A stretch of DNA of 64,000 bases from Bifiguratus adelaidae. Lineage: Eukaryota; Mucoromycota; Endogonomycetes; Endogonales. Position 1 is the stretch's first letter; the number at the start of each line of letters is the position of its first letter. The translations under genes and the position numbers were made by a program. The stretch is from positions 694,051 through 758,050 of the forward strand of contig MVBO01000001.1 in assembly GCA_002261195.1 (NCBI GenBank), read 5' to 3'. Positions 41,132-52,358 of this stretch are shown here, piece by piece. The notes under the pieces were generated by a model, which saw only the letters and a list, made by a program, of their open reading frames with translations, was not told the DNA's origin and made no database searches.

Positions 41132-43376
41132 CTATGCTGAAACACTCTCCTCCATGTCGTCTTCAGGGTCCTGCCAGATATCCGAACCGTTCGATAGATG
41201 TTGCCCACTGTGACTGGATGTCGACGAAGGCCAGAGGTCCCGCTCGACAATATCAAGCGCATTCTCAATCTCGTCGTACGCGGCGTCATTTGCAGAAGCA
41301 TCTGCACTTGGGATGCTTTCGTCCCGATCAGATTCTGTATCATAGGATTCGGCATTGTGATAAAGCTCGTAGACTTTGTATAAGAACTCCTCGCGCTCAG
41401 ATTCTAGAGCCTGTATCTTTGCGCTCAATGTTGCTATAGCGTCCCTTTCTTGGGTGAGCAGAGCCTCCATCTGTTGAGTCTTTTGCTTGGACTGGGCCAA
41501 TAAGCTTTCGGCGTGTGAGCGAGAGTTGATTTCCTTCGCTATGACGCCCTCGAATTGCCTTTAACGTGTCTTAGTTTTCCACAGGAAAGTTGATGCTTTT
41601 CGTAACCAAGAACTTACATGGCAGAATATGCAAAACGTTGCTTGATGCTTGCCAGTTCCAAGTTGTAATTACTCCGATTCTCCAACATCTTCGTGCAGAG
41701 TAATTAGTTTCGCCTCTCCACAGACAAATCACCACGTACCTGTTGATGCATGACATTATTGGCTGCGCGCATAAGTTTGTACTGCTTGATCGCGTTCTCA
41801 TAGCGCGCCATGAGCTTGTCCATGGGCAAATCGGTCTGCACAAATTTTGCATCTGTACTTTTGGTTTCTCTGGACCGTGGATTGCCCAACAATTGCCGGA
41901 GCTGAAGACAAGGCTCGTTAGATCACCTGATAAGCAAAATTGGATCTTACCTTGGCGTTTTCAGCTAACGTGTCATCCAGTGCTGATTTGCATTCATTCA
42001 ACTCGTACTCCGTTTGTTTCAGCTTGGACTTGGCATGCATGAGGCTAGCGCATTCTTGATGTAGCTTCTCAATCATTGCCTCCTGCTCTGATATGCTGCT
42101 CAACATGCCATCTACCCTTGCGGCATCCGTTGACCCCATAACTTCTTCTATACATTGCCGGCTCTCCAACAAGAGCTTATTACTTTCCTCGAGCTCCTGC
42201 CTCAATGCCTGACTGTCTGCGACTGCTGTCGTGTACCACTCCTGCGGTACTTTGTCTCGATTGATCTCCGCGAGCATTCCATTCAGACCTTGAAGTCGCT
42301 GTTGATCCTCTTCGTGCTCGGATTGGAGCTTCTTGTTCCTGGCCAAAAGGTCCCTGTATTCTTGTCGTAGTGCGTTAAGCGCCAGAGTTTTGTCATTCAG
42401 CGAAGTCGTGAGACTGGTCAGACGTTCATTGAGTTCATGATTTTGTCGATCCAAAAGTTTGTGACGATCTTCCACCTCTTCTTCTTTGCGATTTGTCTGC
42501 TCATGTTGCTGGTTCAAACTAGCAAGTCTGGCTGTACACTCGGAGAGCCGGGATGATAGTTCGGCTATCGTCAAATCCCGGTCGTAGACATCATTTTGGA
42601 GCTTCTGCAATTGCTCTGTATTTTGGATATACTGTTCTGATTGCTTGTATAGCGTGTCTGGATCCCGAAACGGGGAAGGTCTGTTAAATGGCGGAGGAAG
42701 CATTTTCTCCAGATCATTTGGACTTGGCGATGGAACGGAGCGATTAGGCGGAGTGGATATAGGTAACTGGAATTGACGGTTCTTGATGGTGCTTGCATGC
42801 TGAGATCTAGTTTCGTAAAACGAGGAAAACAATCTAGGCTTGCTATTTCCATGTTCGCTTCGCGAAGGTAGAGCCGTCAGAAAAGGGTTGCGTACGTCAT
42901 TGTGGGCTGCCTTCGGCTTCGTGGGGTCAACAGGAGCTTCGCTCGGCAGTTTGAGCTACACGAGCACATGAGCTGACGCGTACGACAATGGAAAACTCCA
43001 TGGACTTACTTTTTGCGCAGCCCGCTGTGATGGTAAAGCTGGTTTCGGTACTGGGAAGCGATTTGCTGTGATATTCTACAGCGAGATTAGCCGGGGTATG
43101 GTCAACAATAGGTGAGTACCCTACCTTGCTCTCATTCACGGTCTTTAATCGTGCCGATTCTGCTATGTATTTCCGTTTCTTAGTTTGGGGTTCAATGCTA
43201 TCCATGCGTTCAGGGATATTGAGCGATCGCTGCTGTAGCGGCAACGGACGTTCTTTGAGCATTTTGCCGCGAGTTTTCTCTCCCATCTGTAAGTCGTTTC
43301 CCGTTTTCAGCCTCAATGTCACGAACAAGTCATCAAGTACCTTTTCCTCACGCCATTGCTTGAGCTTATGCTCCAT
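41132..43376 (-). CDS. Long coiled-coil protein of unknown function
   Basis: About seven exons. The N-terminus MEHKLKQWREEKVLDDLFVT is followed by a basic, Pro-rich, disordered region (KPALPSQRAAQK, FPVPKP-type motifs). A coiled coil then runs over some 400 residues (42660 down to 41400; e.g. LNERLTSLTTSLNDKTLALN, QALRQELEESNKLLLESRQC). It ends in an acidic tail with DIVERDLWPSSTSSHSG. This layout fits spindle or microtubule-associated scaffolds, but I cannot name the family. It is divergent from the kinesin-like gene (283 bp between starts), which may be coincidental or a regulatory pair. Confidence 0.65.
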
Positions 43377-43659
43377 TGGAAGTGGCTATATGCGCAAAAG
43401 CCAGGAAAGAGTACCAGAATGACTCCTCTATTATAATATACTGAGCAAGTCTTATCAGTATAGCAGGAGAACATCACGCTGCGAAGTCTTACCTTGTTCC
43501 GTGCTGCAGCAAAGAAGCGAGGAAGATATCGCGTCGACACAGTTCCCGAAAAGGAAAGTCCTTCCTGAGCGCGATTTTCGTGTTCGCGTTTTTGCACCGT
43601 TCACGACTCCGCAGCCGTAAGCCGACGGCAAAGCACGACCATTGTGTACAAAGTCCGCC

Positions 43660-46600
43660 ATGAAAGTCTCGCACCTAGAAGCGCAGCTTCTGGTGCACTC
43701 ACCTTCCGCCAGCCATCTCAAAGAAGACATTGAATTCCAAGCTCAAACATCATTAACGTGTGGAGACAATGTGAAATGCGTGCTGATAAAAGGTATGTCT
43801 ACCCTTCAGGCACTGTCCTTTCTCGGATTGCTTACCTATATTAGACCTACGAAGTGACAAGGAAGCTAGGTATAAGTCGACATCCAGCTCTGCATTGCGC
43901 CCTAACTTTTATTTCACGGCAGTAAACTTTACTTGGACAAATGTATCGCACTTCCCCTGGCGAACGGCGGCTCTCCTATGAGAGCGACTGCAGCTGATAT
44001 TGTGAACAGATGCTTGACGGGTGAGGCCAGAATCGCTAGCTGAAGCCAGAAATTGAACTGCTAACAATTTGGATTGACAGGCTACAATGCGGCCTTGTTC
44101 GTATTCGCCATGGGAACATTTCGCTACGCCAAGTACAATCGGTACGTTTTCTCGGTATAAAAATTTTCATACACTGAACAACGAACATCAGCATGGACGC
44201 CGTGATAACCACATTAGAGCTGCTTAGTAACAGGCTGAAGAGCGATACAAGATCGATAAGCATATCCTATAGGTAAGTATTGCCGTACCAGCCGCCCTTC
44301 AAGCATGGTTATAAACAGATTATCCAGCTTTTTGGGCATCAGCGACAAGAAATGTGTGAACCTACTCAACGATAGAATCGTTCAAGGTGAGCAAAGCGTA
44401 AATGGCGTTTCTCGAGATCGCGATTTCATCTATAACCCTGCGATCGTTGTAGCTGCTGACATCGTCGCTGAAGGAATTGAGCACACTCTCGAGAGTGTCG
44501 ATTCCGTTGATTCAATAATCGACAAGGTCAAGTTAGGCAGCAGCATGCCTTTTGCAGTATCCATCAGGCTGGAAGGAAGTGGAGAAATGAAAGATGGAGG
44601 ATTCATTGGAAACATTATAATGGTAAGGTCTCTGGGCCACTGATTCAAGATCACTGATCAGGCATTGATCGCGATGCTTAGTTCGATCTCGGCTCCCCTC
44701 GTTTCGATACAATGTCAATTTTACCTGCTGACATAAGCCAAGCAATTTCGAACGCGCCTGCTTTGCACTCTTCCTTTGCACATTTCGCCTCTCTTTGTCA
44801 ACACATCTCGCAACCCGGTTATATGGGCGATTTGCCTTATGAAAAGACCATATTTACAAGTTTGGCGGCAGGTAGGATAGCCTGACGAATGGCTTGACTC
44901 TGCATGTCATTAACATCGTCTCGCAGACTATGTAGGCGGCTCTGGAAAGTCGTACATAATTGGTCATGTCGAGGTTCGTCGACTTAAATGACGCTTCGGA
45001 TGCCAGTGCTGATATTTTGTAGGGCATGTCGCAACTTTCCTCGTCAGAACTAGCGTTGTTTACGGAGCTTCTCAGCTTAATGAGGAAAATCAAAGTTCGG
45101 GAAGTGCCAAATGTCGTGGATAAACGGGTCGATCACTTGGAGAAGAAGTACCGCTACTACAAAGAGCAATATTGGACGCTTCACGATCAATCAGCCGAGC
45201 ATGTCAAGATTTACGAACGCAGCGAAAAATCTATGACTCTGAAACTATCAAACCTAAACGCACAACTACAAGAAGTCTCCGCTTCGCGATCGAAATTAGT
45301 CTCAGAAAAAGAGGTTATGATAGCCAGCCTCAGAGCGGAATTAAGTGAACTCGAGAGTGAACGGCAATCCAAACAAGAAGAGGTAATTATGGACATTTAG
45401 CTATCGGTCGCCAGAGCTTAATTGATCATAGATGGACATTTCTATATCGGCTGTGACGACTGGTGCGCAGTACAAGATTGCCGTACTCAAGATGGAATTG
45501 GTGACAGCCAAAGAAGCCATGCGAGAACTTCGTCTGGCCCTGAGTGAGTTCATCGCTTTACAATAAGACTTGGCAACCATAATGACCTGTGTCCTTAGGT
45601 GAATCCGACGACGATCGTCATGATGCTCTTATTGATAAAGAACGGTTGGCAGAGGAGGATCGAAAATACGAGGTAATATCTCAACTCGCGCGAGGGTACT
45701 TGGATGTTTGTGCGCTAAGGGAATCGCAGATTGACTTGGAAGAACTGAAGGAGAAACTCGCTGAGCTACAGGGCCGGTACACCAGAAGTCGCGAGATGAT
45801 TATTGAGCTTAAAGAGAAGCTTGGAGAAGCTTCAACGAGTGGAGAGCTGCTCAATGAAGAAATCAGCAAGTTGCAAGCCAACCGATCCTTCAAACTGCCC
45901 CCACAAGCTCCTCGTTCTATACAATTATCTAAATCATCGGCCAAGCCAATGGTAAGCTTCGCATTTACGTAGTTCTGCTCTCTTACATTGAGCCTCGTTA
46001 GGACACTTCCCGAGAAAATATCCCAGTTTCAACAAAGCCAAGCAGATTACTTGCCGATCCCAAACCTGCGGTAAGAATGCTGAAAGGAATGACTAGGACC
46101 TTATCTGATTCAGTTCGCCCAACTCTTAGCGCAAGGAGAAGGAAGAACCTGTACGTCTTGGGGAAGTGATAGCAGTCAAGAAGCAGACCGTATGTTTTCA
46201 AGACGTGACAGTCTCTTCTTACGTGCACTAATGTGAATAATAGGCACCCAAAAAGACTTCCATTGTAGAAAAGGAGAAGAGTATAGTGACTGTGCAGGTA
46301 TGCTTCTTTGGCAGCCTCAATCGTATTGATGTTAATTTGTTCTGCGTTTTGCGTATTGCAGCCCGCGTCGCAGCCTGCATCCGATCCAGTACCTCCAGAC
46401 GTTATCGAAGATGTTGAACCAGAGCCAACACCCATAGCTGATTTAGGTCCTGTAAGGAGACTGGGCAAAGGACCATCCGTAAGTGTTGACAAACGCAGTA
46501 TCGAAAATTTCGGCTAAAGGTATGAGCAGAAATCGCGACAAAAGGCGCCGCCAAAACCAAAGCAGACCAAAATCGAAACCACGATTGGGTCGCTAGACAG

Positions 46601-46863
46601 GCTTAACAAGTCCCAGCCTGAGATTGAGGAGCAACAGGGAGATGAAAATAATGACACCTCATACACACTTCTGCAAAAGAAGAAGAAGAGGAAGCTCAAT
46701 ATAGCCGGCAAAGGTCGGACACTCTTCGGATTGACCGCACTCGAGGTAAGCTATTGGCAATATGTCGCCGACAATGTTATCGACGATGGACTAGGACCTC
46801 TCCAATTTCGACATTGCGCCAGCGGATGGCACGAAAGCCAAACCACCGGTGGTGATTTTGTAG
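43660..46863 (+). CDS. Kinesin-like protein with degenerate motor domain
   Basis: About eighteen short exons join into one chain: a kinesin-fold head, then a long coiled coil and a basic tail. Head landmarks: DIVNRCLTGYNAALFVFAMG matches the strand before the kinesin P-loop, ISISYRLSSFLGISDKKCVN matches the SYLEIYNE region, NIIMFDLGSPR stands where DLAGSE should be, and DLPYEKTIFTSLAADYVGGS matches the PYRDSKLTRLLQDSLGG helix. The GQTGSGKT P-loop is absent (VFAMGTF instead), as are NxxSSRSH and DLAGSE. An intron with donor gttcgt (about 44974-45024) joins GHVE to GMSQLSSSELALF, the neck side. The tail coil includes IDLEELKEKLAELQGRYTRS. It ends PPVVIL at 46861-46863. Likely a non-catalytic kinesin partner. 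Confidence 0.68.
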
Positions 46864-48617: not shown

Positions 48618-51600
48618 TTAAAAGTGCAGAAAGGATCGCTTCTCTTTGCCTTTGCGTTCCTTGTCTGCCTCTGTCCTCTTTTCTGTGCGGGTATCGTGGT
48701 GGAACAGAGAGTCTAATCCAGCAGACATTTCTCTGGAGAGTCGGTGTTCCATAAAGGTGCGGGAAGTACGCCTTGTCTTGGATTTCTGATCGGACGAAAG
48801 GAGTGTTGAAGTCGAAGGACCACGCGGGATGGCTACATGTTCTGCCCTGGCAAGATATTTCGACGAGTCGCTGTGTACGGATTGTGCGGGAGATTGTACG
48901 TGCCCATCGGGTTGGAAACTTGACGGTGTCGAGGAAATGGAACCATGCCGGGCTTCCTCGGCTCGAGATTCCAATTCTGCCTGAAGGTTTACCAGCTTGG
49001 TTTCGAGCTCCAGATTACGTTCTAGAAGACGCTTGGCTTCGTTTTTTGCATGATCCAAGTCCTCCGTATTAGCAGGTGGGGTTTGAGTAGGCTCCCGTAC
49101 AGCTTTTGGCCTTGTCGCGGCTTGCTGCTGCAGCTCCGAGATTTGAATGAGTAGACGGTCAGCATCCGCCGAGTGAGTCTCCAGTTCACCCTTAAGTTGT
49201 GCATTCTCGGCCTCCAAGGCTTTCACTTGCCCCTCAGTGCCAGCAAGTTGAGATAGCAAGGCGTCCATCTTGCGATGCTCATCCTTCTTCTTTGTCATAT
49301 CCTCCTCCCATCGAATCATTTGTTCAGCCATGCGTTCAATGTGACCTTCGGCTATTCTCAGTCTTTCAATTTCTGGCTCCATGATAGCGATCTTGGCATC
49401 CAAGTCAAATTCTTTTTTGCGAAGCGCTGCCAATACTTCATCCTGATCTTTGATGCGTACTTTTGTAGCTTGCAACTCATCTTTCAACTCCTTGTTCTCG
49501 GCCAGCAACGCTTTCCTCTCCTCTCGCAAAGTTTCTGTCTTGTTGGACACACCCTTGCTTCTGAAGGTTCGTTGTCTGTCTTGTCTTTGGGAAAAAGTTT
49601 GTAACGCCTTGTATTTCTCGTTAGCACTTTCCAGCTGTACCATCAGATCCCGTGCCGCTGAACCCATCTCTTCCGCAGAGGCTAAAGAGGTTTCCATCTT
49701 CAATCGTTCTTGATATAACAGTTTGATATGCTGGATGTGCTGTTGCCGGAGAAAGAGTTCAAAGTTCAACTCATTCCGGAGCAATAATACCTCCCGCCGT
49801 AAAGTGGCGAGCATCGAATCCACACTGCCGTCGGGAGATGAATTGACTTGGGCACCTGCAGCTGGTTTGACAGCATCCAGCGAGTCAGCTGTGTGAGATA
49901 AATCGCCCAGAGTATCGCTGCTCTCTTCGGTAACAAGCGCTTTGTGGGTATCCAAAATTTTATCAACGGAAGATTTGGTAGCGTTATCAGAGCCTGTTTT
50001 CTCCAGGTTGCCTGTAGTATCATCCGTCACTGGTGCAACCGTATCATCTGAGGTGCCGGCCGCTAAACCATTCCAGAGACATTCGACCAATGAATGCTGA
50101 TGACCGGACGCCTGATTGTCGGTTTGCGGCATAACTATTCGGGACGGAGTGTTTGTCATGTCCAAACTCATACAAGCAGCCATGATCACTGGTGGTTCGA
50201 CTTGGAAACGGTCGAGGTTGATCAACTCTGAAGAGGCGTCCATCCTTAGAAGCATGGGATGCAGCATATGTCGATCTACGGACACCTGCGAACCTGTGTC
50301 AGCCAAAATTCTCCTGTACGTCTTGAACATACCATAGCTCGCTTCCTGAAGACATCATCATCGATTTCTTCCGGCGGATCAAAACTTTTATCGGCGAAGT
50401 AGGCTGCAGGTGAATGCAAAAAGGCCATGAAGTTGCATGGAAACAATCCGTACAAACAAGTGAATAACGGTCCAGCTCTGGGATTACTTGGAGGTGCGGA
50501 GACCTTTGATACGGAAAAGTCTGATGTCGTTGAATATGTTAGTTCAAACCTCCCCTGGTTGTTAAAATCAGCACTTACCCAGCAAATCCCAACCTTCGTA
50601 CGCAGCGTTCAAGCTATTGGCTGAAATTAGATGCTCATTTGCTTGCTGTTCACTGTTCGCTTGCGTTTCGGTTGAGTTCGCATTCTGGTCATTACCTGAC
50701 GGCGGAGGGCTGTGCATGCCTCCAGCATCGAGTGTGACAATTGATTGTCGTGTCGCATGGCGTTCTTGGCTACGATGCCGTATCTGGTCCCAACAGATCG
50801 CTCGAGCATATATGTAAAAGAGCTTTGGGAGATGTTCTGGCAGTGCCGTACATATGCGAGGCAGGAGCATGATCAAGTTCGAAACAGAAATGGCAATCAG
50901 TGTGGTGGAGTGGTCAAGCTTGAGATGTATTAGCATTGATGAGAGCTCTTTGCTAAGATGACTTACCATGAGGGAGGTGAGAATAGATTGGAAAAGTGGA
51001 GTCTCTAGCATGTCATATACGTGAGTTCGCTAAGTGAAGCGCAAGCATGTCAATATCGAGAATTTGAAACGATGTGATACACGCCGCTTACCTTCTTGCT
51101 TATAAATTCGGTCAATAGATGTAGGGTTTGAAGTCGGTATCGGCTCTGTACAAAGTAAGAATTCAAAAGCACAAAGAAATCCTAGACCCCATGAACATCA
51201 TATCTGACAATGCATGACTCGAGCATGTGTAGTACCTTCGTTCTCCATCCACCAAGTTCTACAAGCACGGAAGCAAGATTTTGATACCAAACGTCTTCAT
51301 CCAAATCCAGCAATGCACGATGTGGAGGTAGAGTTTCATCAGATTCGTGGCTCATGTCCTGAGCAATGGAGACGGTTTGTTCTTTCCCCTGTTCTGTTGC
51401 AGTGGGGTTGCGGTGGCGCTTTTGAAGGTATAGCTCAAGAATGTCTTGACGGAATTTCGTGGAATTGGGATCATTCTCATCTATGAGCAGCTTAATGAGA
51501 ATTGAACGACTTTGCTCTCTCAAGGAGCGCGGAAAACGAGGATCTTGCAGTATCGGCTTCAACACCGGTGTCCACCATATCGCTACCACGCGTGTTGGAC

Positions 51601-52287: not shown

Positions 52288-52358
52288 GCAATCTTGGTTT
52301 AGTGGTATAATTCTCGCCTGCCACGCGGGAGACCCGGGTTCGATTCCCGGAGATTGCA
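52288..52358 (+). tRNA. tRNA-Gly (anticodon GCC)
   Basis: A 71-nt cloverleaf. The acceptor stem gcaatct pairs with agattgc, with discriminator A. The D-arm holds the A-box-like tggtttagtggtata, the anticodon loop is ctGCCac, and the T-arm carries the B-box ggttcgattcc. No intron. A run of T follows within a few bases, consistent with Pol III termination. Confidence 0.95.

Follow-up and report, generated by a model that had tools for sequence, protein, structure and literature searches.

BZG36_00222 of Bifiguratus adelaidae carries a kinesin-derived head without nucleotide-binding motifs and may be a non-motor kinesin-like subunit

The 64,000-nucleotide stretch of Bifiguratus adelaidae DNA analysed here (contig MVBO01000001.1, positions 694,051 to 758,050 of the forward strand, hereafter the window) contains, at 43660..46863 on the + strand, a gene encoding a kinesin-like protein with an altered N-terminal head, a predicted coiled-coil stalk and a basic tail. 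A protein search identified this gene as BZG36_00222 of a root-associated fungus (Mucoromycota, Endogonales). The descent of the head from a kinesin head is supported by collinear homology, and the loss of its kinesin ATPase is nearly certain from the motifs that have disappeared. The protein, called pseudo-kinesin below, may well be a catalytically dead, dimerising, non-motor kinesin-like subunit or a spindle adaptor, probably nuclear, a reading that we hold with middling confidence.

The gene model runs from the ATG at 43660 to the TAG at 46861-46863 and comprises 18 exons, in agreement with the approximately 18 proposed in a preliminary description made from the letters alone. The 17 introns are all of the GT-AG type (46-64 nucleotides) and the spliced model of 763 codons has no in-frame stop. 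The deposited protein (P0001, 760 residues) is the same but for 3 residues, the sole difference being the choice of the exon 6 acceptor. The interval 43660..45120 contains the head, and the stalk and tail lie downstream. In the head, the frame used contains no stop codon, whereas the two alternative frames contain 27 and 17, and its codon log-odds, trained on 12 kinesins of the same genome, is +0.12 bits per codon, where 1000 shuffles gave at most -0.14; the introns scored from -0.37 to -0.60. Two observations that do not depend on how the exons were selected, the codon use and the agreement with an independent annotation, speak for an intact gene under constraint with a coding-like frame. No second copy was found in the genome (G000, 18.6 Mb), the sole match besides the gene's own exons having an expect value (E) of 0.38 and facing stalk residues 404-485.

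The homology of the head was analysed by hhalign with a profile of the heads modelled at 13 other kinesin loci of the genome, grouped from 40 genome matches, so that at least 13 such loci exist. Their gene models were obtained by spliced alignment, with a kinesin-5 assembled by hand as the seed, and have approximate ends. Without any hand alignment, columns 48-320 of this profile were collinear with residues 56-331 of P0001 (248 columns aligned), which defines an intron-interrupted kinesin-homologous head at 43930..45085 (+). The whole protein scored 42.8 (P 8e-5) and its first 345 residues 39.5 (P 9e-5), while the part from residue 341 on, with 13.4, does not score. With a second profile of 7 of the 13 loci, the scores were 44.3 (P 5e-5) over residues 73-309 and 40.0 for the first 345 residues. 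Among 300 shuffled versions of the 345-residue head, the best scores were 26.5 and 25.0, and 57 real pieces, taken from 48 other reading frames of at least 150 codons in the window, scored no higher than 23.7. The loci K10 and K13 served as positive controls; each was compared with a profile built without it, and the scores were 255 and 391. The comparison with kinesin profiles proposed in the preliminary description thus came out above all shuffles and all real pieces, and the three segments quoted there as aligning in order with kinesin, including SYRLSSFLG, were all recovered in that order in one spliced frame. Viral contigs were also scanned for kinesins to enrich the alignment and none was confirmed.

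The preliminary description had reported the P-loop, switch I and switch II consensus sequences as missing, and each of these losses was located. At 44107..44136 (+), the alignments place AMGTFRYAKY where kinesins have YGQTGSGKTY; the P-loop GQTGSGKT has become GTFRYAKY, with the first glycine and the lysine retained in two alignments. At 44536..44553 (+), one alignment sets GSSMPF against the switch I consensus NxxSSRSH, the SSRSH being reduced to SSMPF with about 14 preceding residues missing (three other alignments put the gap elsewhere). At 44685..44702 (+), four alignments agree in setting DLGSPR against the switch II sequence DLAGSER, i.e. DL-GSP in place of DLAGSE. The other 13 kinesin loci all contain the P-loop GxxxxGK[ST], and SSRSH and DLAGSE/DMAGSE are retained in 12 of them. 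Since GxxxxGK[ST] is found in no + frame of 43400-45400, no P-loop exon was overlooked in that stretch. GGSGKS in exon 8, within the loop 12/helix 5 segment described below, was considered as a moved P-loop and rejected, since its counterpart in the alignment is the GGNSKT stretch and the first glycine is absent. In 11 canonical kinesins of the genome (K10 and K13 being excluded by choice), 58 columns are conserved with at most one kinesin deviating; the pseudo-kinesin retains 17 of these columns, compared with 36 for the divergent kinesin-10, in a count from one MAFFT alignment that places the P-loop and switch I differently from two other alignments. Because the P-loop and both switches are lost, the absence of kinesin ATPase activity is, by sequence, nearly certain.

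The segment corresponding to loop 12 (L12) and helix 5, LPYEKTIFTSLAADYVGGSGKS, at 44832..44952 (+), was placed by the alignments and by a phmmer search of the PDB, and its basic strip residues are replaced (PYRDSKLTR has become PYEKTIFTS). Loop 12 and helix 5 form the tubulin-contact strip of kinesins. A passage of PMC10987093 likewise gives alpha4-L12 as the tubulin-contact region. Ordinary microtubule binding by this head would therefore be doubtful, as the basic L12 residues are lost. The acidity of the head was dropped as an additional argument: residues 56-331 have an isoelectric point (pI) of 5.2, and the kinesin K5b of the same genome is also below 7; a 355-residue head has a net charge of -4, the same as the heads of two active kinesins of the genome, K4 and K14.

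AlphaFold, when given a kinesin alignment (in which row L009 includes intron read-through), returned a kinesin fold for the head; from the lone sequence, some helices and strands of this guided model were recovered in the same places. Behind the head, AlphaFold2 predicted a helical coiled-coil stalk (residues 347-542, interrupted at 470-474; 45131..45879, +), compatible with the coiled-coil tail announced in the preliminary description. Over residues 351-540, ten-residue means of the predicted local distance difference test (pLDDT) were 61-86, or 47-77 when no alignment was supplied, and the sequence matches of the stalk are generic coiled-coil ones of SMC type only. The tail (residues 543-760; 45880..46860, +) is basic (pI 9.8, net charge +12) and mostly unstructured, with pLDDT mostly below 50, and no PDB sequence match was found for it at E<=10. 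It contains KKKKRK at 46677..46694 (+), which we take to resemble the consensus of classical nuclear localisation signals and presumably functions as such.

The divergence of the pseudo-kinesin greatly exceeds that of the genome's other kinesins, and its family is unplaceable. In the tree, its end branch measured 10 changes per column versus 3.69 for the next longest, and no supported set contains it; the nearest row by path is kinesin-3 and the sequence is otherwise unplaced, the end branch being too long for the tree to place it. Pairwise Smith-Waterman comparisons (200 shuffles each) gave z values of 7.4 for K3, 5.2 for K4, 2.3 for K14 and 1.5 for K6. The number of shuffles reaching the real score was 0 for K3 and K4, 1 to 5 for K1, Kx, K8, K5a and K14, 14 to 22 for K7a, K5b, K7b and K6, 56 for K10 and 104 for K13. 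These family labels are our assumption, except for K8, K10 (two pieces), K3 and K4; solved structures support the K3 label, with KIF1A as best match, and the K4 label is less firm, its best structure match being an unnamed kinesin-like protein followed by KIF7 and KIF4. A link to kinesin-4 through a shared intron was considered, one of the 8 head introns (phase 1, at the GYN glycine) coinciding with an intron of the kinesin-4-like gene. It was dropped because 45% of 20000 random trials gave one or more matches with the 84 distinct intron positions of the genome's own kinesins.

Protein searches over 5.8 billion proteins returned BZG36_00222 alone, and relatives sharing few 5-residue words with it could be missed, since these searches depend on such words; the candidates scored were the 7995 and 7996 with most shared words and another 134. 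The separate fungal lineage suggested in the preliminary description was accordingly not shown, and divergent orthologues may have escaped. The suggestion that such a protein is undescribed was only partly fair, as the UniRef name of the BZG36_00222 protein is already 'Kinesin motor domain-containing' and a pseudoKinesin-21 has been named in print. A passage of PMC5076506 presents the latter as a group of orphan kinesins confined to fungi, in which the likeness lies, and does not say whether its motifs are lost. Among the open-licence papers listed, no title or abstract was found on kinesins of Bifiguratus or of Endogonales.

Pseudo-kinesins are a known, informal kind of protein, and BZG36_00222, judged by its kinesin-homologous head and lost nucleotide motifs, belongs to it. 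Among the systems compared, the nearest architectural parallel is the trypanosome KIN-B, an orphan kinesin within the chromosomal passenger complex, although it belongs to a remote organism and was compared by description. According to passages of PMC10987093, KIN-B has neither the P-loop nor the two switches, lacks many alpha4-L12 residues, has an N-terminal head and joins the active kinesin KIN-A via a parallel coiled coil; its inactive head alone did not localise to the spindle. As far as these passages describe KIN-B, a dead N-terminal head followed by a coiled coil is common to both proteins. KIN-B differs in having a known partner, and the resemblance is one of architecture, not of shown descent. 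Of the examples given in the preliminary description, Vik1 and Cik1 (partners of the kinesin-14 Kar3) hold as non-motor kinesin-like partners with a non-catalytic head, as described in passages of PMC4338441, but resemble the present protein poorly in architecture: the title of PDB 4etp gives Kar3Vik1 a C-terminal motor homology domain, whereas the pseudo-kinesin has its head at the N-terminus (56-331) and its coil at 347-542. With a pairwise z of 2.3, the pseudo-kinesin shows no special affinity to the kinesin-14-like locus of its own genome (L018, the family label being presumed). Vik1 had no row of its own among 50 listed rows, which carries no weight. Costal-2 and KIF26/VAB-8 have an N-terminal head. 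These animal proteins are likened here by description only, as kinesin-like proteins with no motor activity: Cos2 and VAB8 are described as very divergent kinesin-like proteins in passages of PMC2867816, and KIF26A as without motor activity in PMC10585591. Smy1 is likened by description too, as a divergent fungal kinesin in passages of PMC2867816 and PMC5076506, the second of which puts it in kinesin-1. A passage of PMC2867816 also mentions that 166 of 1624 kinesin-like sequences were set aside as too divergent and that the tree set was without Cos2.

The computed results, namely the kinesin homology, the lost motifs, the open and coding-like frame, the predicted coiled coil and the failure to find a second copy, are compatible with a protein whose N-terminal head probably keeps much of the kinesin fold, would neither bind nor hydrolyse adenosine triphosphate in the kinesin manner and presents an altered tubulin-contact strip. 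The protein would dimerise via the predicted stalk of about 200 residues, and the basic tail would probably direct it to the nucleus. Its role would most likely be that of the non-motor half of a dimer or of a structural spindle adaptor, like KIN-B beside the active KIN-A. Several points weigh against this interpretation. A Pfam-A scan of the protein found no kinesin family at E<=10, so that the PF00225 cut-off, a detection threshold and not a defining kinesin trait, was not reached. The best PDB match by phmmer was only KCBP (E 0.33, residues 255-363), and with HMMER and the 13-kinesin profile the separation was narrow (10.2 bits for the head versus 6.2 for the best of 2000 shuffles). The guided AlphaFold model is partly circular, its alignment being made of kinesins with no shuffled control, and its residues 241-330 reached only 41-74 pLDDT per block; when no alignment was supplied, the pLDDT was 39 and no kinesin was matched, so that the kinesin fold anticipated in the preliminary description was obtained with the kinesin alignment but not from the lone sequence. 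The exon boundaries were picked to be open, which makes the absence of stops partly one of construction. Finally, KKKKRK is a short motif, and a homodimer and a heterodimer are indistinguishable by these analyses.

The missing Pfam and lone AlphaFold matches, together with pairwise scores that lie within chance for several own kinesins (K13 and K10 being equalled by 104 and 56 of 200 shuffles), would be expected from a coiled-coil protein resembling kinesins by accident. Such an accident is very improbable in view of a collinear alignment of 248 columns that beats 300/300 shuffles and 57/57 real pieces, of the 13.4 scored from residue 341 on, and of the elements shared by the lone and guided models. 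Just as improbable is a decaying pseudogene or a wrong gene model, an explanation to which the extreme divergence, the lack of a homologue in the protein searches and the selection of open exons would lend themselves: 763 codons in 18 exons are read with no stop and with GT-AG boundaries throughout, codon use is kinesin-like in the head and negative in the introns, and the independent annotation is nearly identical. More serious is the possibility, a more specific variant of the favoured reading, that the protein is non-catalytic and obligatorily paired with one given active kinesin of the genome, on the Vik1/Cik1 principle with N-terminal heads, the dead head giving footing or regulation. At least 13 P-loop kinesin loci are present to provide a partner, a coiled coil is predicted, the passages of PMC10987093 describe a pair of this kind whose heads are N-terminal, KIN-A/KIN-B, and in those of PMC4338441 the dead head of Cik1 restrains the diffusion of the motor and is required for processive Cik1-Kar3 movement. 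The loss of the basic L12 residues makes microtubule footing by the head doubtful, and the inactive KIN-B head failed to localise to the spindle according to PMC10987093; we regard an obligate partnership of this kind as possible but rather unlikely. A homodimeric scaffold with no motor partner, in which the head is a plain protein-binding domain in the manner of Costal-2 or KIF26, seems slightly less likely still. The joint loss of nucleotide motifs and L12 strip, the strong divergence and the long stalk and tail would suit it, but no motif for any known partner was found, no Pfam family came above its cut-off, the tail has no PDB match and the stalk matches generic coiled coils only. The KIN-B parallel and the function of the dead Cik1 head lead us to favour the dimerising non-motor subunit or adaptor. 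A narrower version, in which a KIN-B-type subunit evolved independently in fungi and its dead head pairs via the stalk with an active kinesin into a single-headed nuclear motor or spindle adaptor, so far in one early-diverging fungus, is put forward tentatively.

Budding yeast, animals and trypanosomes all have dead kinesin heads that are still of importance. If clearly established in a fungus of an early-diverging lineage, a further example would suggest that cells have repeatedly put kinesin heads to use as passive parts. In the pseudo-kinesin, the ability to bind nucleotide and the normal contact with tubulin seem to have disappeared together, and a standard domain search can miss such a protein, as BZG36_00222 shows.

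A second odd kinesin, kinesin-10-like, was observed in the same genome (L021, G000:C218:391657-392522), with KIF22 as best PDB match for both of its pieces. It retains the P-loop GSPGSGKS and has SPKTH for SSRSH and DLARPE for DLAGSE. Two further genes of one genome, L010 and L012, which we take to be kinesin-5-like, have three head intron positions in common. Kinesin genes were also encountered on contigs filed as bacterial genomes (L022-L044, e.g. DYPS01 'Desulfosporosinus'), several being open only in ciliate code 6; these contigs are probably eukaryotic contamination.

In the window, coiled-coil reading frames at 41132-43376 (-) are transcribed divergently from the pseudo-kinesin, their likely ATG being 283 bases from its own. 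The two genes may share a promoter, and this neighbour is a possible candidate for a partner of the pseudo-kinesin. On the other side, a reading frame of 578 residues at 48618-50354 (-) matches Cnn_1N (centrosomin motif 1) with an E of 5e-4, a score that falls short of the Pfam cut-off, and a tRNA-Gly(GCC) lies at 52288-52358 (+).
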